A stretch of DNA of 64,000 nt from Gammaproteobacteria bacterium (GTDB lineage: Bacteria > Pseudomonadota > Gammaproteobacteria > Pseudomonadales > Azotimanducaceae): contig NYVG01000002.1 in assembly GCA_002684495.1 (NCBI GenBank), positions 120,970-184,969 of the forward strand. Direction: 5' to 3'. Numbering within the stretch: position 1 is the first letter of the stretch; the number at the start of each line of letters is the position of its first letter. Shown in pieces: positions 16,797-25,374 of this stretch. Below the pieces are notes generated by a model. It made no database searches and was not told the origin of the DNA. It worked only from the letters and a program-made list of their open reading frames with translations. A program made the position numbers and the translations under genes.

Positions 16797-17201
16797 CTAC
16801 GTCGCCGGAAACGGGTTCGAGATTACCGTCTTGAGCGCGAAAATTAGATGCTTGTCGGTTCCATTCTCGCGGTGCACGTTGGCGGCCAGGTACTCTTCAT
16901 TCGTCACCATCTGTATGAACGTATCGCGACTGGGATAGACAACAAGTTGAACCACATCCCAATCGACATCGAGATCTTCCCCCTGATTAAGCGTGAGGTG
17001 TTCGACGGTACCCATCCAGATGACCACGGCACCCAAGGATTCGAGCAGCGGCTGCACAACTGACCCGTATCGGTAGTACGCATCACGGCCTGACCCATTC
17101 CCATCCAGCGACTTCTCTCGGTACTTTATAAGATTGACCATGTACACCGGCCCCTCTGTATCAGGGTGGTTCTTCAGGGCTTCAAGTTCGAACGGATTCA
17201 T
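16797..17201 (-). CDS. DUF1330 family protein
   Basis: 134 residues with the DUF1330 ferredoxin-like fold. VYMVNLIKYREK starts the first strand; YRYGSVVQPLLESLGAVVIWMGTVEHL carries the helix and second strand; VQLVVYPSRDTFIQMVTNEEYLAANVHR is the family's closing motif. Members are small dimeric alpha+beta barrels of unknown reaction. It is the last gene of the minus-strand island operon, 38 bases after the selenoprotein candidate. A second, tandem protein of this type lies three genes upstream. Confidence 0.85.
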   Translation of the reverse strand: MNPFELEALKNHPDTEGPVYMVNLIKYREKSLDGNGSGRDAYYRYGSVVQPLLESLGAVVIWMGTVEHLTLNQGEDLDVDWDVVQLVVYPSRDTFIQMVTNEEYLAANVHRENGTDKHLIFALKTVISNPFPAT

Positions 17202-17239
17202 AGTTTCATTCCTGTCTTTAGTTGTATTGATTTAGCTCG

Positions 17240-18364
17240 TCACGGGTCTGGTTCAAATTGAAACTGACGATGAATCTCGATGATTCCGGGCGTGACAGCG
17301 ACCATCCAGACCAATGCCGCAATACCCACCGATGTCAGGGGCAACAGCAGCAACGCAACAATCCAGGCGGCGAGAAAGATATAGGTACGCCGCATCGCCG
17401 TCCGGGCACGAGCGAACCCGCCACTCCCATCGCGGTCCAACGACAACGATGTCGGTCGAATGAACCAACCATTCGCCAGATGGATCCAGAGACTAAAGAG
17501 CCACGGGGGATCTTTCTCTGTCAAAGTCGGCTCTACATCCAGATCGGCATCGCAAGTCGATGCCATGCCTGCCTGAATACGATCCCAGGTATACCTGGGA
17601 TCGGGTCTAGCACCTGCACCGCCGATGTTGCTCATCTTCGGAACAGCACGCCAGCGATAGAGCACCCGTGCCTTCTCATCGATGGCGATGACCGCCGGCT
17701 GGAAATATCCCTTTGGATGGTTGGCCCAGCTCCGCTCGCGCAGATGACCGGTGTCTTCGTTATAGAAGATGTCGAGCCACCCACGCGCCTTCAGATCTTC
17801 CCTGATTTCGTGGTGGGGGTCGCCGATCACCGGGATGGTCATTTCCCAAGTGACCTCAGCTTCAGAGGCCAACGAATGCGGCTCACTCGAGATGCCGAAG
17901 ACTTCCCCTCCAGCTGCTCTAATCTCTTCGACCACTCCAGCAGTCTCATAGCCACGTAACTCGCGGCGACATGGGGGTCACCAGAGTCCACGGTAGAAGA
18001 GCAGCACCACAAACTTATGGCGCCCCATCTCGGCTTCGAGCCAACCGCTTCGTACACCGACCGGAGGATCGAGAAGCGGGGGAATCTCTCTTTCCGCCGC
18101 ATCGACAAAACCGAACTGGTATCCATCACCTGACGGATCAACCCGAACCTGTTCGCGCGCGCAAATCTCGCCATCACAAAGCACAAGCCCGAGTTCGTAC
18201 CCTTCCCCAGCTTCTGCATGCAACGCCTGTTCGTAATCGACCAGCCCCGTGAGCTCATAGCTGCGCGCCTGGGTTTCGTTGATCCACGAGACCGCGGCAT
18301 CTGCCTGCGGGCGCAAGATCGTCGGAATGTTCTCATCATGCTGCATGGGAAATCTGCACTCCAT
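17240..18364 (-). CDS. Candidate selenoprotein: membrane-anchored peroxiredoxin/redoxin-like protein with in-frame UGA (Sec)
   Basis: One continuous frame of 374 residues if the TGA at 17980-17978 is read as selenocysteine (residue 129). The frame before it ends LLFYRGLW and the same frame resumes PPC-RRELRGYE, giving RGLW-U-PPC. Redoxin/AhpC-TSA-like proteins have RGxWCPxCRxxL here, so Sec replaces the first Cys of CxxC. The domain goes on through GGEVFGISSEPHSLA (residues about 154-168), PVIGDP and AVIAIDEKARVLYRWR, typical thioredoxin-fold strands. An N-terminal extension of about 95 residues is unassigned. Two hydrophobic segments (roughly 325-360) form a C-terminal membrane anchor. A SECIS-like hairpin follows the UGA (17951-17967). 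The start may be the ATG at 18364 or at 18346. It lies in an operon with an arylsulfatase upstream and a DUF1330 gene downstream. Alternative: a nonsense mutation splitting a cysteine-type gene. No selA, selB, selC or selD is in the window. Confidence 0.75.
17951..17967 (-). promoter_or_regulatory. Putative bacterial SECIS element
   Basis: In the mRNA, ten bases after the UGA, GCCGCG (17967-17962) pairs with CGUGGC (17956-17951). This gives a 6-bp stem with one G-U pair, closed by a five-base loop AGUUA. The loop has G at its second position. Bacterial SECIS elements are short stem-loops about 11 bases downstream of UGA with a G among the first two loop bases, which SelB recognises. Spacing, stem and loop all agree. 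Confidence 0.65.
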
Positions 18365-18487
18365 TGGTCTTCAGCCATGCCGGTCCGCCGAACAGTTGGC
18401 CTGATGATAGAAAAGAGGTTCTCGTACTCCGATTCTAGGCAACAGGTCGCCTCAGATCGAATACCGGGAAAACCGGCTCACAACATC

Positions 18488-20176
18488 TCAGTTTGTCCAG
18501 TAGACGTACTCGTCATCCGGCGCATCGGGGATCGAAAGGTCCTTGTCGATGTTGATTCCCATTGAAGCTGTGCTCGGCCATATCGACGCCGCCTGTTCAG
18601 CATTGTGCGCCTCCAGCGCCGCCTCTAGTTCGGCGACCTTCTTCGGGTGCTTTTCTGAGAGGTCCACCCGCTCGGTTGGATCGGCCTGGAGGTCGAATAA
18701 CCACTTGCGGGACTCGGCACCAGGCGGGCGACTGACATTGAGCTTCCAACCATCGACAAGCGCGGTCTGGGAAGAGCCGCTTCGCCAGAACAGTCTCTCG
18801 TGCGTCACCCCTGCTGTTTCACTATCGACCTGGCCACTGACAAACGGGAGGAGGTCGATGCCGTCGATCTTGCGATCAGCCGGCAGCGCGGCACCGGCCG
18901 CGGTTGCTGCCGTTGCAAACAGATCGAAGTGGTGCACGGGCTGGGTCACAGTCGTACCCTCTGGGATCATTCCGGGCCACCTAATGAAGTAGGGAACACG
19001 GAGCCCGCCTTTGAAAAGCGTCATCTTCCAGCCTCGATAGGGAGCATTCACATCAGGCAGCCCTATGTAGCCTGCTGCGCCATTGTCCGACGTGAAGATC
19101 ACAAGGGTGTTTTCTTCGAGGCCGTTATCCTGCAGGGCATCCAGCACCTGACCGACCCCGCGATCGAGGGCCCGGATCATCGCCGCGTAGACCCGTTCTC
19201 GATGGAGCTTTATGTGTGAGAGGGCTTCGTAATCTTCCTTCGTCGCCTGCAGCGGCGTATGCGGCGCCCAATGTGCAAGATACAGAAAAAAGGGGCGATC
19301 CTTATTCGCTTCGATGACCTTGACCGCTTCTTCGCTGTAGTAGTCGGTCAGGTATTTTTCCGGTTCGAACTTTTCGCCGCCGTTGAAGGACACGGCGAAC
19401 TGGAGCGCACTCCAGAGGAAGCGATCAATGCTGTCGAACTCCTGTTTCGCATTCACCACATTGGGATCGTCCTTCGGCAGGTAGAGCCCAATGTCCATCA
19501 GGAGACTCTCGTCGAAGCCTTGCGCCTCGGGCGTCATCCCTTCCGCTTGCCCAAGATGCCACTTGCCGATGTGGGCGGTGTGATACCCCTGCCCTTTCAG
19601 CAGTTCCGCAAGCGTGATCTCGGAACCAGGCATTCCAAGGTCGAGCATTGAGCCCGGCGATTCCCCGTCTTCATTCCTGATGGTCGGGCGCATTGGTGCA
19701 GCGTTCTGACTCCTTATCATGCGGAGCATGGTGGACATGCCGGGTGGGACCGGTGTGAACTCGAATCCAAAGCGAGTGCCATAGCGACCACTCATGAGCG
19801 CCGCTCGGGAAGGCGCGCAGGTGGCATTGGCCGCATAGCCGTTAACAAAGTTGACGCCCTCCGCGGCCAGAGAATCGATGTTCGGCGTGGGAACGGTTCC
19901 ACCGGCGACGCCGCCGCCAGCAAAGGTCAAATCGTTCCAGCCGAGATGGTCGGCCAAGATCAGCACGATGTTCGGAGGACGATCGGCGAGGGCTCGACCT
20001 TCCGAGTCTGCACCGGACTGCCATTCAACGGCGACATTAGAGCCGACGGGGTTCATCCGTGGCACGGCGAGCTCGAAGATCGAAAGGACCACAACGGCAC
20101 GATTGGCCCAAACTAGGGACACAAGCAATGCGAGCCCTACAGCCACGGTCAGGCTGACTTTTCCGAGTTTGCTCAT
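18488..20176 (-). CDS. Arylsulfatase (type I, formylglycine-dependent)
   Basis: A 562-residue sulfatase with an N-terminal membrane or signal segment (residues 6-24). The metal site begins at NIVLILADHLGWND. The sulfatase signature is CAPSRAALMSGR with Cys120 as the residue converted to formylglycine. HIGKWHLGQ and LVIFTSDNGA provide the other catalytic-site residues. It hydrolyses sulfate esters, probably in the periplasm; the desulfated substrate may be handled by the operon's CoA-transferase and hydrolase. An AGGAG sits six bases before the ATG, overlapping the end of the preceding gene. No formylglycine-generating enzyme lies in the window. Confidence 0.93.
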   Translation of the reverse strand: MSKLGKVSLTVAVGLALLVSLVWANRAVVVLSIFELAVPRMNPVGSNVAVEWQSGADSEGRALADRPPNIVLILADHLGWNDLTFAGGGVAGGTVPTPNIDSLAAEGVNFVNGYAANATCAPSRAALMSGRYGTRFGFEFTPVPPGMSTMLRMIRSQNAAPMRPTIRNEDGESPGSMLDLGMPGSEITLAELLKGQGYHTAHIGKWHLGQAEGMTPEAQGFDESLLMDIGLYLPKDDPNVVNAKQEFDSIDRFLWSALQFAVSFNGGEKFEPEKYLTDYYSEEAVKVIEANKDRPFFLYLAHWAPHTPLQATKEDYEALSHIKLHRERVYAAMIRALDRGVGQVLDALQDNGLEENTLVIFTSDNGAAGYIGLPDVNAPYRGWKMTLFKGGLRVPYFIRWPGMIPEGTTVTQPVHHFDLFATAATAAGAALPADRKIDGIDLLPFVSGQVDSETAGVTHERLFWRSGSSQTALVDGWKLNVSRPPGAESRKWLFDLQADPTERVDLSEKHPKKVAELEAALEAHNAEQAASIWPSTASMGINIDKDLSIPDAPDDEYVYWTN

Positions 20177-20185
20177 CAGTCTCTC

Positions 20186-21085
20186 CTATAGCTTCGATAG
20201 AAACGGCACCGTCACCACCGCCAGCGAGTCGCCTTGCTGCTTATCCTCACCGATACGATTCATGAAGGTGCTTCCGATCATGTTCTGCATATAATCGATC
20301 CCCGGGTAATAGACCGCTGCAACTGCGGAGAACTCCGCGTCACCTTCCACCGTTACCGCACGCCCCAAGTGCATCGGGCCATGGGCCCTCTCCGCCATCG
20401 CACTCATCAAGCTCTGAGTGTACGCATGATCCGCAGCTCTCTGCGCCGCGTCACCGGGCTTGATCAGGTTGAAAACCACCACGGCGTCTTCGCAGAGATG
20501 TCGAAGTTTCTCGAGCGTCTTCAGACCCTCGATCATGACCTTCTGCGACGGAAAGGCATCATTGCCCACTGGAACAAACGGAAAGTGGGAAGGCTTTCGT
20601 CGCAAGATATCAGTCGCGCGCAGCTTCAACAGGATTTGCGGAATCATCAGATTGGCGAGCACCGATCGCTGGAACCCATGGATATAGACCCGTTCGAAAC
20701 TTGCGAGCGCCTGCCGCTGCTCCGTCCGCTGTCGAGCTGCATCGAATGCCTGACAGGAGTCGTATTGAACAAGCAGCACGGCGTCCCAGTCGTTTTCAAC
20801 CTGTTCCGAGCGGACCAGTGCGACGGCAGCCTGACCGGCATAGACAATGGTTCCCCCACCGGGTGATTCAAGAACAGGGCGCAGGGAACGCACGGCCTCG
20901 ATCACGTCCGCACCCCGCTCGACCTTCAGATAGATCACCGCATGAAACATCCGGCTGGGATGCAGCACGGGCTGCTGATCCTGGACAATCTCACGGCGGG
21001 CCTTCAGATATCTGCGGTGCTGCCAGACGCACAGCCCGAGAATGGAGAGTCCGAGAACGCCAAGCAATGTAACAATGATGCTCAT
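20186..21085 (-). CDS. Membrane-anchored protein with two DUF1330-like domains
   Basis: A 299-residue protein. Residues 3-22 form a signal anchor, followed by a basic linker. Two ferredoxin-like repeats follow. The first (about 47-145) has FHAVIYLKVERGADVIEAVRSL and WDAVLLVQYDSCQAFDAA. The second (about 190-290) has AVVVFNLIKP, HLGRAVTVEGDAEFSAVAAV and a closing YMQNMIG. The pattern is that of two DUF1330 units fused in one chain and held at the membrane. It sits between the alpha/beta hydrolase and the sulfatase with gaps of about ten bases, so it belongs to the same operon. Function unknown. Confidence 0.65.
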   Translation of the reverse strand: MSIIVTLLGVLGLSILGLCVWQHRRYLKARREIVQDQQPVLHPSRMFHAVIYLKVERGADVIEAVRSLRPVLESPGGGTIVYAGQAAVALVRSEQVENDWDAVLLVQYDSCQAFDAARQRTEQRQALASFERVYIHGFQRSVLANLMIPQILLKLRATDILRRKPSHFPFVPVGNDAFPSQKVMIEGLKTLEKLRHLCEDAVVVFNLIKPGDAAQRAADHAYTQSLMSAMAERAHGPMHLGRAVTVEGDAEFSAVAAVYYPGIDYMQNMIGSTFMNRIGEDKQQGDSLAVVTVPFLSKL

Positions 21086-21096
21086 GTTCTATAGCC

Positions 21097-21864
21097 CTAC
21101 GCGCACTGCGCCGCGGCATGCCAATGCGCGATGAGGGCGTCCGCGCCAATGGCAGCCCCCTCACCAAACATCCACCAGTGATTGAAACCATTCAGGGTGA
21201 GAAGTTCGGCACCGAGAGTGGTGGCGACTTCCGTGTACATCTGCTGGGTCCCAGCGAAGTGGTCTTCCGTGGGGGCGAAGATAAGACCCGGGCGTTGTTC
21301 GGACTCAGCCAGGTATCTACTCAGATTGGCCATGGCCGGTTGGGCAGCGGAACGATACAGCCCCAGGATGCACCTGGCCATTTCCTCGTTCTGGTCAGCC
21401 GAGACGAGTTCGGCTGTGTCGGCGGGAACGCCGAAACCGATCAACATATTGGCTCGGTCGGCCAGCGTGCCTCCGAACAGTGCCGCCACAGATTGCTCTC
21501 CGACGTCGGGTGTCTGAAAGGCCCGGGCCATGTCGTGCCACTCGTAATCTACGTGCATGAGGCCTGCTGAATCCGTGGCCCAAGAACGGATCAGATCCGT
21601 GCGCCTTGCGAGGGCACCGTAGACGTGGCCTGCGCCCCAATCATGGCCCACCAGATCGACGTTTCCGCCGAGCACTTCCAGCTCAGCGATCAGCCAATCG
21701 CGGTAGCTCGACTGGATAGGTTCGAAGTCTTGCGGAACCGGTGCACCAAATCCCGGTGGCGTGAGCAGGTGAATGTCACCGATGCCGCGGGATTCGAGTG
21801 CTTCGACAAGCGCACTCCAGATAGCGCTGGTTTCAGGGACACCGTGAACGAAAGCTATGGGCAT
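21097..21864 (-). CDS. Alpha/beta hydrolase (epoxide hydrolase/haloalkane dehalogenase-like)
   Basis: 255 residues from the ATG at 21864, which has AGAGG five bases upstream. The frame is open further back to 22140, but that part overlaps the CoA-transferase gene and looks like a shadow. HGVPETSAIW forms the oxyanion-hole region, and VDLVGHDWGAGHVYG gives Asp as nucleophile, as in epoxide hydrolases and dehalogenases. The catalytic His is in GFNHWWMFGEG near residue 232. The Trp after the nucleophile is typical. It could open an epoxide or cleave a C-halogen bond; the substrate is unknown. Confidence 0.85.
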   Translation of the reverse strand: MPIAFVHGVPETSAIWSALVEALESRGIGDIHLLTPPGFGAPVPQDFEPIQSSYRDWLIAELEVLGGNVDLVGHDWGAGHVYGALARRTDLIRSWATDSAGLMHVDYEWHDMARAFQTPDVGEQSVAALFGGTLADRANMLIGFGVPADTAELVSADQNEEMARCILGLYRSAAQPAMANLSRYLAESEQRPGLIFAPTEDHFAGTQQMYTEVATTLGAELLTLNGFNHWWMFGEGAAIGADALIAHWHAAAQCA

Positions 21865-21902
21865 TTGGACCTCTGGATTGGATGAGTTGGGTAAGTCGAC
21901 GG

Positions 21903-24119
21903 CTATTCGAAACTTTCGAGCACGGCGGCGGGAAGAATGATTGGATCGTCTGATTCCTCGAAGCGAACGTGCGACGGCGCCGGAAAGTAGTTGATACTTC
22001 CATCCAGCTGTTTCTGGGCGATCACAGTGACAGCATCGAAATCGCGCGGGCATGGTCTTCCAACTTGCGCGTCCGACACGGGGGTCGCTTGCACGCGCAG
22101 GGAACGGAGCGTCTGGAGTGGAACAGGGGTCGACTCGCAACCGCCCTGAGGCTCCGGATTCGTGTATTGCCAGCCGCCGTCATCGCTCCTTGTCAGGGGC
22201 ATCGATGATGCGGGCACGGGGGGGAGGCCGGATCCAGTAACGATGCGATCTGGCTGAACGAACTGCGCATACTGGGCCAGACTGGTAGCGACCTGTACCC
22301 CGGATTGCCCTCGAATCCGTTCGAGAAGACCCAGGCTGATCGCGAACAGCCCGGAAGCGCCCGACCCGTAGTCGACCGACCCGGCGACACCGAGCCAGTT
22401 GCGGTAGCCACTTTCGCTCTCCTCCGCATACGCTTCGACGATGCCGCTTCCGATCTGGAGGAGCGGATCGTAGCCTGGCCAGTCGCTCCCTGGGTACGCA
22501 GAGATCGAGCAATAGATGGCCTCAGGGCGAATGGCGTGAACGGAATCCGCGTCAATCCCCAGGCTCTTCGCAGCCTCGGGGCGCATGTTCCGGACGACCA
22601 CGTCCGCTTCAACAATCAGCTCGCGAAGCCTCTGCTGCCCGGCCTCTGACGTGAGATCCAACGCGATGTTTTCCTTGCCGCGCTGGACGTCTGCGCCGAC
22701 GTTTATCTCGAGGAATTTTTCATGGTACGGCTCGGGAGCGCAGACGCGGATGACCTGGGCGCCATACTGCGCCAGAGTCAGGCCGCAATAGGGTGCAGCC
22801 ACCACGGTGGTGAATTCGAGTACTCGCAGACCACTCGTCAGACCCGCGGAGTTGGCTTGAGGGGTGGGTCCTTCCAGGGCGAACGCGGGCGCCTGATTCC
22901 AGGCCTCCAGAAGGTCCGCCGGGTCCGCCAAGATCGTCCGAGGTTCGAAGGACGGGCCAGGCCCTTCAGGCGGGCCGGCACTGGTTGCGACGGAGCGTCC
23001 AAGGGTGGCAATGGAACCGACGAGCGGATCGTCGAAGTCTGCACGCAAGCCCATCTCGCGAACGAAGGGCTGCTCGAGCCACTCTTCAGTAGTGCGGAAG
23101 ACGGTGGCCGGGACGACGGGTGCCAGAAGCTTCACCCAGTACTCGGAGCTCTGTCTGGCAAACGCCTGCGCCAACAGCGCCGCGAGCTTCCTATTCCTGC
23201 GAACCCCGAGACTGTTGGATCGATCGAAATCGCTGTCGCTGATGCCTACGACGCGAACCGCTTCGTCCCAGAGCCCCATGGCGCGCAACATGGCAGGCTT
23301 GTGTTTCCGTGAGCTGCTGATCACCTGGAGCTTCGAGGGCCCGTCGGCACAGTCCCAGGTTCGGGCGAACAAATCCATTCTTTTGTCAGCAATCATCTGC
23401 TCGAGCCAGTTTCTAAAAAACACCTGCGGGATCCAGCGGAGCCACGCCGGGATGGGTTTGTTGCCCGGGAACCCATTGATCAGGTGTGCTGTCTGCGCCT
23501 GGAAGAAACAGCCCGCCAGCGAGACCTGAATATGGTCTCCCCGGCCGCTACTAGCTCGACGCCCGAGGCCCAGGCATACGGCGGAAGCCGCATGTATTGC
23601 GGCGTAGGTGCTGGGCAGGGGCGTCCTCGTGTATTTGGTATCTCCGGGTTCAAATAGACGGTCGTAAAGATTCATATCGGTAAAGAGCCCTGTCGCGGCG
23701 CCGACGCGCCCGTCATCGGGTGGGTGCGTCTGCAGCGTGTCAAACTCGCACATCGTCACCAAGAGAAGCGAGGGGTGCTGGGTTCTGATCGTGACGGGGT
23801 CTAGCTCGGGGAGCTCCGTTGCGTAGGAAAGAATGACGACGTCGGCGCATGCAACGAGCCGTACGACATCCGCTGCGGTGGCGATGGGTGCCAGCACGTG
23901 CTTGTTTCGGTCGATGCCGGCCCGCGACCGGGCTTCCCGTGACCGCGCCCGGGCCGCTGCTTCCTCGATGGGTGCGTGATCCGGGTGCACGCCAACCCTT
24001 GCGACAAAAGCGCCCTGGTCAGCCAACAGCATACCGAGCAGCGAGGCCGCCCAGTTCCCTGCCGCGGAAATCTCGAGCACTCGCAGCCCCTCAAGGGCAT
24101 TCGATCCTTTCGGAGCCAA
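21903..24119 (-). CDS. Double-domain CaiB/BaiF family CoA-transferase
   Basis: A 738-residue protein made of two family III CoA-transferase halves. The first (about 1-400) opens GLRVLEISAAGNWAASLLGMLLADQGA, the second (about 425-735) opens GLRVLEFTTVVAAPYCGLTLAQYGAQVIRV. Ordinary members have about 400 residues and interlock as dimers, so this is a covalent pseudo-dimer. The second half keeps NMRPEAAKSLGID and VAGSVDYGSGASGL, where Asp would be the catalytic carboxylate. The first half lacks a clear equivalent and may be structural. The start is TTG at 24119, supported by AAGGAG. It probably activates an organic acid to its CoA ester in the island pathway. Confidence 0.9.
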   Translation of the reverse strand: MAPKGSNALEGLRVLEISAAGNWAASLLGMLLADQGAFVARVGVHPDHAPIEEAAARARSREARSRAGIDRNKHVLAPIATAADVVRLVACADVVILSYATELPELDPVTIRTQHPSLLLVTMCEFDTLQTHPPDDGRVGAATGLFTDMNLYDRLFEPGDTKYTRTPLPSTYAAIHAASAVCLGLGRRASSGRGDHIQVSLAGCFFQAQTAHLINGFPGNKPIPAWLRWIPQVFFRNWLEQMIADKRMDLFARTWDCADGPSKLQVISSSRKHKPAMLRAMGLWDEAVRVVGISDSDFDRSNSLGVRRNRKLAALLAQAFARQSSEYWVKLLAPVVPATVFRTTEEWLEQPFVREMGLRADFDDPLVGSIATLGRSVATSAGPPEGPGPSFEPRTILADPADLLEAWNQAPAFALEGPTPQANSAGLTSGLRVLEFTTVVAAPYCGLTLAQYGAQVIRVCAPEPYHEKFLEINVGADVQRGKENIALDLTSEAGQQRLRELIVEADVVVRNMRPEAAKSLGIDADSVHAIRPEAIYCSISAYPGSDWPGYDPLLQIGSGIVEAYAEESESGYRNWLGVAGSVDYGSGASGLFAISLGLLERIRGQSGVQVATSLAQYAQFVQPDRIVTGSGLPPVPASSMPLTRSDDGGWQYTNPEPQGGCESTPVPLQTLRSLRVQATPVSDAQVGRPCPRDFDAVTVIAQKQLDGSINYFPAPSHVRFEESDDPIILPAAVLESFE

Positions 24120-24312
24120 GTTTCTCTCCTTGCCTCAGTCACCTCCGAGCAGTCTCTCGAATAGGCTTCTGACCCTGCTGGTCTAGAACGCATAGATGCT
24201 CCCTTCCTTTTCATCCCGACAACAGGTCAACTCAGGTCAAATAAAAGGAAATGCGGCTCACGCGAGCCAGATTTGGCACTGTAGTCCTGAGATGTTGCGC
24301 GAATAATGCAGG

Positions 24313-25374
24313 TCAGCTCGAGCCAGGCTCAGAGCGATAGGCGAGGCGCCAATCTCGCGGTGCGACCCCGGTCCATCGTCGGAAGGCTTTCGTGAAACCA
24401 CTCGCGTCGCTAAAACCCAACTCATCAGCGATCTCTTCGACCGAAGCCTCGGTCCCCCCTAGCAGGGACGTCGCCCTTCGGAGCCGGAAAGAGTCTTTCA
24501 GACTTTGAAATGTCGCGTCGTCGGCCTTCAGTTTTCGCTTCAGCGTTGCGCTGGACATGTGGAGCGCTGCGCAGACTTCGTCCAGGTCGGGAACTTCTGG
24601 CTCACGTGACTGGAAGACGGCCCGCACTCGATCACTGATGTTGGCATCTGGATCCGAGCCTTCGAGTTGACGAAGCGCGATCGCGCGGAGTTCGGTGCTG
24701 GGCGAAAGCAGCGGCGTATCCAGATAGTCGGAGCAGAGCACTAATTCGACGTGCGGCGCATTGAAGGTGATCGTCATCCCTGGGGGAAGGCCTGCGCGAG
24801 ACAGCGAGAATCTATCCTCTGAATGCGTGACCTTGAGTGTGTTGGCAAATGGCGTCGCCATTGCGCCCGCCATTCGCCGCCCCCGCAGTTCATGGCCGAG
24901 CAGAATAACGATCGAGTTGAAGCGGTCGACGCCGTCATCGATCTCGACCTTTGGGTCGGGTGGACTCATCAGGACCACCATTTCCCTCTTTTCGGCTCGC
25001 ACCATGAGACGTTCGCTGTTACCGAGTTGGGGTCGGGCATAACGAAATCCCAACGCCGTCGCCTCGCGTAGCGTCTGACAGTTCTGCGCAAACATTCCCG
25101 CAGCGCCATGACGTAACTCGCTACCTCGACGAGCGAACCGATAGGCATGGTGCGGGTCTGGTCGCTGAGCGAGGAGACTTCGTATCAAACGGTAGTACGT
25201 TTTGCTTCCCACGAATCTGGGGAGCTGCACGACCTCATCGGGAGACAAACCAGCGCTGGCCAGGACCGACGACGCGTCTAGGCCGCATTCAGCTACGAAT
25301 TCGAGGAACACCGCGAGATACTCGGCCGCAACCGTGTGACGCCCCTCTCCGATCTTGTCAACTCGACTGCTCAC
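24313..25374 (-). CDS. AraC family transcriptional regulator
   Basis: 353 residues starting at GTG. The N-terminal 230 residues resemble the arabinose-binding-like domain of the OruR/ArgR-type AraC subgroup (EYLAVFLEFVAECGLDASSVL, YRFARRGSELRHGAAGMFAQNCQTLREAT). The C-terminal 100 residues are the double HTH: VPDLDEVCAALHMSSATLKRKLK and SVEEIADELGFSDASGFTKAFRRWTG. It is the first gene of the island and reads in the same direction as the six genes after it, with a 193-base gap likely holding the operon promoter. It is the obvious candidate activator, responding to the operon's substrate. Confidence 0.92.
   Translation of the reverse strand: MSSRVDKIGEGRHTVAAEYLAVFLEFVAECGLDASSVLASAGLSPDEVVQLPRFVGSKTYYRLIRSLLAQRPDPHHAYRFARRGSELRHGAAGMFAQNCQTLREATALGFRYARPQLGNSERLMVRAEKREMVVLMSPPDPKVEIDDGVDRFNSIVILLGHELRGRRMAGAMATPFANTLKVTHSEDRFSLSRAGLPPGMTITFNAPHVELVLCSDYLDTPLLSPSTELRAIALRQLEGSDPDANISDRVRAVFQSREPEVPDLDEVCAALHMSSATLKRKLKADDATFQSLKDSFRLRRATSLLGGTEASVEEIADELGFSDASGFTKAFRRWTGVAPRDWRLAYRSEPGSS

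Follow-up and report, generated by a model that had tools for sequence, protein, structure and literature searches.

A predicted selenoprotein joining a UxxC redoxin to a two-cysteine domain and a C-terminal hydrophobic hairpin in a gammaproteobacterial genome

The locus and its reading frame

The window examined in this study is a 64,000-nucleotide stretch of DNA from a gammaproteobacterium of the family Azotimanducaceae (GCA_002684495.1, contig NYVG01000002.1), which lies in contig C48 of an assembly of 62 contigs with 98.66% completeness and 5.39% estimated contamination. On its minus strand, a frame of 128 codons (18364-17981) is followed by a TGA (17980-17978) and then, in the same phase, by a frame (17977-17243) that closes with a second TGA (17242-17240). 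The original prediction, made from the sequence alone, took the two frames to be one gene with a single in-frame TGA and no other lesion downstream, and both points were borne out by the frame and its translation. The active-site string of the joined protein is FYRGLW-U129-PPC132-RREL. The TGA had also been proposed to occupy the place of the first Cys of an RGxWCPxC motif, and this agrees with the Cys-containing relatives aligned at residue 129, which read RGEWCPWC (L027), RGGWCPYC (L098), RGDWCPWC (L150), and RGFWCPPC (L138); L138 is the sole same-family member among them. The coordinates of all features are given in Table 1.

Table 1. Features of the selenoprotein locus, in window coordinates
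Feature	Position	Strand	Details
Selenoprotein gene, 374 aa, predicted Sec at residue 129	17240..18364	minus	full-length homologues ~37-80% identical
In-frame UGA, predicted to be read as selenocysteine (U129)	17978..17980	minus	TGA in 68/69 family loci, TGT in 1
Redox motif RGLW-U-PPC, residues 125-132	17969..17992	minus	aligned with ResA WCxxC
Bacterial SECIS-type hairpin GCCGCG-AGUUA-CGUGGC	17951..17967	minus	6-bp stem, covariation
AhpC/TSA redoxin domain, residues 115-233	17666..18022	minus	PF00578, E 8e-12, 45.6 bits (cut-off 26)
N-terminal domain, residues 7-112	18029..18346	minus	beta meander and a single long helix (model); unmatched in Pfam
Conserved Cys63, N-terminal domain	18176..18178	minus	Cys in 24/24 complete sequences
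Conserved Cys68, N-terminal domain	18161..18163	minus	Cys in 24/24 complete sequences
C-terminal hydrophobic hairpin, ~residues 316-369, predicted membrane anchor	17258..17419	minus	hydropathy
EthD/DUF1330-like gene, next downstream	16797..17201	minus	both models below Pfam cut-off

Translation may start at ATG 18346 instead of ATG 18364, since alignments with homologues begin at approximately residue 7-11. The TGA cuts the redoxin domain in two, because the PF00578 match spans it. As ORF calling with the standard code breaks the protein into two pieces, genomes with the gene probably carry it as two annotated fragments.

Organization of the predicted protein

The predicted protein is composed of three parts: an N-terminal domain with two Cys residues, an AhpC/TSA redoxin domain with a UxxC motif, and a C-terminal hydrophobic hairpin. 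The product had first been described as a redoxin; it is not a plain one. PF08534 also scored over its cut-off in Pfam (30 bits versus 26.6), which named no part of the protein beyond the redoxin domains; no NCBIfam model reached its cut-off, and PHROGs returned no match.

The N-terminal domain was modelled by AlphaFold2 with a mean pLDDT of 76.5. A Foldseek search of this domain against the PDB gave no match at E <= 0.001, with weak cystatin- and monellin-like matches of which the best was cystatin-like; for this reason, no homology is claimed. C63 and C68 sit at the turn of a beta hairpin in the predicted model. Beyond the complete sequences counted in Table 1, the C-x4-C spacing occurs in 23 of 28 further loci, while both Cys residues are kept at a wider spacing in the other five (L138, L141, L146, L148, and L149).

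At the C-terminus, hydropathy reaches 2.39 over 19 residues, and windows above 1.4 start at residues 322-348. This segment forms two long helices in the whole-protein AlphaFold2 model, which is of low confidence (pLDDT 57.5) and for which Foldseek found nothing at E <= 0.001, the best matches being peroxiredoxins. Basic residues on both flanks of the hydrophobic hairpin (RARTAMRR before, HRQ after) suggest that both of its ends are in the cytoplasm.

Distribution of the family and identity of the residue-129 codon

The codon at residue 129 was read in 69 family loci, including the window gene and its paralogue (62 loci plus seven fetched later). Sixty-eight of these have TGA and one has TGT, encoding Cys. 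Seven loci omitted from this count also have TGA: L061 and L062 (the same as L010 and L011), L105 and L108 (the same as L074 and L056), L071 (which holds an N), and the close copies L075 and L082. The codon reading further leaves out the repeats L101 and L115-L117, the loci L012 and L013, and, in the phylum to which G1134 belongs (recorded as Myxococcota), all partial places but G1370:C49 (L151) and G1387:C584 (L150). The original prediction had regarded a stop conserved among homologues as evidence against it. The TGA is indeed conserved, but neither TAA nor TAG stands at this codon in any of the 69 loci, one locus has Cys, and coding conservation extends over both flanks, as would be expected of a Sec codon. 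A misread base (TGC or TGT called as TGA) was rejected because the same TGA recurs in many separately assembled genomes.

A scan of genome contigs yielded five loci, and all three that cover the codon have TGA. Among 58 relatives, 28 had a match to the query at E <= 0.001, many to short redoxins only, and each match at E < 1e-70 contains one TGA. One of these (L085, G395:C233) has two TAG codons besides, which may reflect decay of this copy or faulty assembly. Of the 369 genomes searched in the class, 57 gave a match of some kind at E <= 0.001, with full-length matches in the window's own genome only. A 17-row profile (A5) found 11 places in nine of 390 genomes of the order, all with one TGA, and matched no genome besides the window's own among 398 of the phylum. 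In the G1134 phylum, the same profile matched 35 of 377 genomes at 46 places, 36 of them near full length; 34 of these 36 contain one TGA, one contains a TGA and a TAG, and one has no stop. Absence in these searches is not proof, since few candidates per genome were scored (five in most cases) and the groups were sampled.

Within what was examined, the three-part family appears to be nearly Sec-only, because 68 of 69 loci have TGA and the Cys redoxins are more distant and lack the other two parts; L027 and L150, for example, show an identity of approximately 30% in the redoxin part. Further Cys members may exist. The window genome itself encodes a second full-length paralogue (L056, G000:C35:27076-28152), approximately 41% identical, likewise with TGA at the Sec position and the hairpin described below.

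Other Sec redoxins were met in the course of the survey. A short AhpC/TSA redoxin in the window genome (L057, G000:C46:145578-145757) reads RGHW-UPYC with a TGA, and 11 further loci of the genus have TGA in this type of motif together with a hairpin of their own; these short Sec redoxins are a different family and stand outside the counts. Two frames of approximately 405 codons (L096, G377:C513; L097, G389:C42) contain AVW-UPPC with TGA at the motif and a long C-terminal part, and are likely another Sec redoxin.

Selection downstream of the TGA

The part of the gene downstream of the TGA is under purifying selection. Comparison of the window gene with L012 over residues 192-374 gave a dN of 0.048 and a dS of 0.541 (dN/dS ~0.09), and comparison with L013 over residues 253-374 gave a dN of 0.084 and a dS of 0.701, both stretches lying entirely downstream of the TGA. 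Six other pairs have a dN well under dS both before and after the TGA; in five of them, dS was at or near saturation. Taken together with the TGA in 68 of 69 family loci, this selection indicates that the interrupted frame is more than chance.

A covarying hairpin directly after the UGA

A SECIS-like hairpin had been predicted within 17900-17990. The element at 17951-17967 gained comparative support, but the 91 nt as a whole fold no better than shuffled sequences (z 0.08). Shorter pieces fold modestly better than their shuffles (z -1.9 for 51 nt and -1.8 for 41 nt). No Rfam model matched over its cut-off in 17800-18050; a PYLIS_2 hit on the plus strand (14.2 bits versus a cut-off of 36) was set aside as chance-level. 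Pyrrolysine uses UAG.

The predicted hairpin is kept by compensatory changes, a case that comes from comparison and not from energy. Over 61 Sec sequences (of the 68 Sec loci), 98.6% of 366 stem cells are paired, compared to 90.3% (sd 0.7) after shuffling, and 40 cells carry double-sided changes versus 13.4 in shuffles. The covariation score is 0.325 against 0.143 (sd 0.014) for shuffled alignments, with none of 500 shuffles as high, while sliding the partner by one to three columns leaves at most 51.1% paired and a score of 0.104. Two measures were less telling: the two doubly changed pairs observed were equalled or exceeded in 486 of 500 shuffles, and the seven pair types in 16 of 500. Covariation is carried by two of the six pairs (16-28 and 17-27), three pairs are invariant, and pair 16-28 is non-standard in five of the 61 sequences. 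RNAalifold recovers the same hairpin unprompted from 26 sequences.

The hairpin loop is constrained at synonymous sites. The codon for Glu135 is GAG in 61 of 61 sequences, compared to 869 of 1481 for Glu in the rest of these genes, and that for Leu136 is TTA or TTG in 61 of 61, compared to 387 of 2026. Since stem pairs join codon 134 to codons 137-138, amino acids 134 and 138 go together: the combinations R..G, F..S, S..S, L..G, and S..G are fully paired, and A..G has one mismatch. These classes need 15 changes on a 58-row tree (built without L070, L079, L085, and L148, which are partial or have a further stop, and without L150-L157) and so are not one frozen ancestral state. Such recurring compensated changes indicate that an RNA element shapes the protein beside its active site. 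The distance from the UGA to the stem is 10 nt, and the apical loop has G in second place; this arrangement matches the description in part of PMC1088965, where the UGA is followed directly by a stem-loop that has a G in its small apical loop.

The hairpin also bears on the reading of the TGA as a true stop, under which the locus would be a pseudogene or would encode a 128-aa protein and, after it, a second protein with a start of its own. The standard code does interrupt the frame here, and GTG 17935 could initiate the downstream part. However, the identical TGA is found in nearly every family locus with Cys in the remaining one, the downstream part is under purifying selection and contains the covarying hairpin, and the break would fall within the redoxin domain just ahead of the second active-site Cys. 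On the strength of conservation, selection, and covariation, termination was ruled out as a serious candidate and is considered extremely improbable.

A Cys-containing member nested among Sec sequences

The sole Cys member among the 69 loci, L138 (G1318:C321:30476-31603), has TGT at the Sec codon. A C-C mismatch interrupts its stem, and folding of its 23-nt piece yields -5.9 kcal/mol, 6 kcal/mol weaker than that of its sister L146 (-11.9 kcal/mol). L138 is nested among Sec sequences in the 58-row tree, where its pairing with the sister has a support of 100/95. This placement makes Cys the derived state in L138, which looks like a fairly recent change from Sec to Cys. With its hairpin weakened next to intact sisters, L138 is a natural experiment in how Sec is maintained.

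Selenocysteine machinery

The search for selA, selB, selC, and selD that the original prediction called for found all four in the window's genome. The tRNA-Sec on contig C8 scores 68.3 bits (Rfam cut-off 47) and is called by ARAGORN as tRNA-SeC with a TCA anticodon (UCA in RNA). The selB gene (377.5 bits, cut-off 242) adjoins selA (540.3 bits, cut-off 268), both on one contig, and selD (268.1 bits, cut-off 125) is on C7. The selD region is the C-terminal part of a 710-aa frame (L059, G000:C7, 3420-5552 minus). Judged by eye, the N-terminal half of this frame resembles an NADH dehydrogenase, as in the Ndh-SelD fusions of aquatic bacteria described in part of PMC2398784.

All five genomes of the loci from the contig scan have selB over the cut-off. 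A strong family match (E < 1e-70, the window genome included) was found in 20 of 58 genomes, and 16 of these 20 have selB at E <= 1e-60; one of the four without it is 96% complete in 520 contigs. Over the 58 genomes, selB is present in 16 of the 20 that have a strong match versus 15 of the other 38 (p 0.003). This co-occurrence is given little weight because it is not significant inside the genus (16 of 20 versus 11 of 17, p 0.25). Binomial values from this analysis were disregarded, since they take related sequences to be independent.

Any readthrough would yield the full-length protein, so the UGA might be decoded as another amino acid, such as Trp or Cys, through a suppressor or an altered code. 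Against this, TGA terminates the window gene and many homologues, the genome has tRNA-Sec, SelA, SelB, and SelD, a conserved hairpin lies just 3' of the UGA, and Cys, which commonly stands in for Sec, is encoded at the single non-TGA locus. Decoding as an amino acid other than Sec is accordingly judged a very slim prospect. Recoding of the UGA as Sec is instead predicted with high confidence, and the view that the gene encodes a functional selenoprotein and not a pseudogene is supported by the Sec machinery, codon conservation, selection, and the covarying hairpin. Weighing against it are the strong-match genomes in which selB was not found (four of 20), the stem pair broken in five of 61 sequences, and the 5.39% contamination estimate together with the position of the gene in a GC-rich stretch.

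Genomic context and horizontal transfer

The EthD/DUF1330-like gene next downstream also adjoins the selenoprotein gene in L012 and L013, both recorded as Myxococcota. Upstream on the same strand are genes for a sulfatase, an EthD-like protein, an alpha/beta hydrolase, a CoA-transferase III, and an AraC-type regulator, a run that looks catabolic. The regulator (24316-25374) lies 6 kb from the selenoprotein gene in the window, and a homologue of it (66%) is directly beside the selenoprotein gene in L102, from another genome of the order. In a comparison of 39 loci plus the window, where most flanks were approximately 1.5 kb or less and a few loci were copies of one another, no neighbour family was common to more than four loci; neighbours vary between these genomes, and no conserved neighbourhood points to a substrate.

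GC content is 0.56-0.64 at 17-25 kb compared to 0.47-0.56 in the rest of 8-34 kb, and the GC-rich stretch at 17000-25000, with its co-directional catabolic-looking genes, was probably acquired. A search against plasmids gave no match at 1e-8. The window gene groups with L122 from the G1134 phylum (80% identical; support 100/99) amid sequences of the window's order, and L012 is 91% identical to it over residues 192-374. Horizontal transfer between the window's order and the G1134 phylum is therefore likely, although mis-binned contigs are a possible alternative source of this pattern. Apparently the gene is transferred in its selenoprotein form, since TGA is present in both groups and selB in five of five and 16 of 20 of the genomes considered above.

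Proposed mechanism and function

In the proposed mechanism, SelB and Sec-tRNA would decode UGA 17978-17980 as Sec under the direction of the hairpin at 17951-17967. The product would be anchored in the membrane by its C-terminal hydrophobic hairpin, with the thioredoxin-fold AhpC/TSA domain most likely in the cytoplasm. Sec129 would then act as the nucleophile, attacking an oxidised substrate (a peroxide or a disulfide), and Cys132 would resolve it as a selenenyl-sulfide. C63 and C68 of the N-terminal domain may pass on or accept electrons and could be the point of electron entry. The function suggested by these features is that of a membrane-anchored selenol oxidoreductase or peroxide reductase. 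The recoding signal, codon conservation, Sec machinery, selection, and domain layout are computational results; the membrane topology, the UxxC chemistry, the substrate, and the role of C63 and C68 are inferred.

The first Cys of ResA is its nucleophile. In a profile search, the active-site motif falls on WCxxC of ResA, U129 against the first Cys and C132 against the second (E 0.05, a lead only), which makes a nucleophilic Sec129 with a resolving Cys132 the most likely chemistry; we regard Sec129 as probably the nucleophile. A variant within the selenoprotein explanation, and not an alternative to Sec recoding, is peroxiredoxin-type chemistry in which Cys132, in the peroxidatic position, attacks peroxide and Sec129 resolves. 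It accords with the Pfam assignment to AhpC/TSA, with the peroxiredoxins heading the Foldseek matches (none at E <= 0.001), and with a by-eye alignment to PxxxTxxU in which C132 matches the peroxidatic residue and U129 the Thr, so that Sec would replace the Thr of TxxC. The variant is nevertheless the less likely of the two, as the profile search pairs UxxC with WCxxC of ResA and Sec in the first position suits a nucleophile.

A broader interpretation would hold that this three-part selenol oxidoreductase (dithiol N-terminal domain, UxxC redoxin, and transmembrane hairpin) is functionally bound to Sec and has passed between Pseudomonadales and Myxococcota in its Sec form, that the hairpin RNA and not the protein dictates residues 134 and 138, and that loss to Cys is rare. 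This combination is put forward tentatively, at a little under an even chance. If it is true, discovery methods needing Cys homologues would tend to miss the family.

Comparison with known systems

Going by parts of PMC12013277 and PMC1088965, selenoprotein searches made without SECIS elements depend largely on Cys homologues, and the present family could escape them because it has one Cys form in 69 loci. By comparison, the Prx-like 1 family in the Global Ocean Sampling survey had a Cys majority, with 225 Sec versus 2,740 Cys members (in the relevant part of PMC2398784).

The closest solved sequences by profile are the ResA thiol-disulfide oxidoreductases, whose active-site motif aligns with that of the window protein at an E of 0.05 only; the window protein differs from ResA in being without a hydrophobic N-terminus and in having its hydrophobic segment at the C-terminus. 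The best NCBIfam match, a SelL-related redox protein (NF040769), scores 17.8 bits, far below its cut-off of 120. The motif of Sec-containing peroxiredoxins is PxxxTxxU, as given in part of PMC13188914, whereas that of the window protein is RGLWUPPC.

The fused Prx-like selenoproteins in part of PMC2398784 (Unknown_2/Prx-like 2 and Prx-like 3/Unknown_3) likewise combine a Trx fold with an extra Cys-bearing domain. Prx-like 2 is described there as having weak similarity to pfam04592 and Unknown_3 as having three Cys with a CxxC, and neither fits the window protein; the separation is made from these descriptions, and identity is possible. These fused alignments aside, no description of the three-part family was found in the portions of the literature covered.

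Prx-like thiol:disulfide oxidoreductase selenoproteins with pfam00578 and a UxxC or UxxU motif are well known (as described in part of PMC9312934), and both the PF00578 domain (45.6 bits, cut-off 26) and the UxxC motif (UPPC) are common to the window protein, which would be filed with them by the rule of domain and motif given there. The window family appears to add to these a two-Cys N-terminal domain and a C-terminal hydrophobic hairpin. Thus, as far as these sources describe them, UxxC Prx-like selenoproteins are known already, and the predicted three-part layout is a new variant among them.
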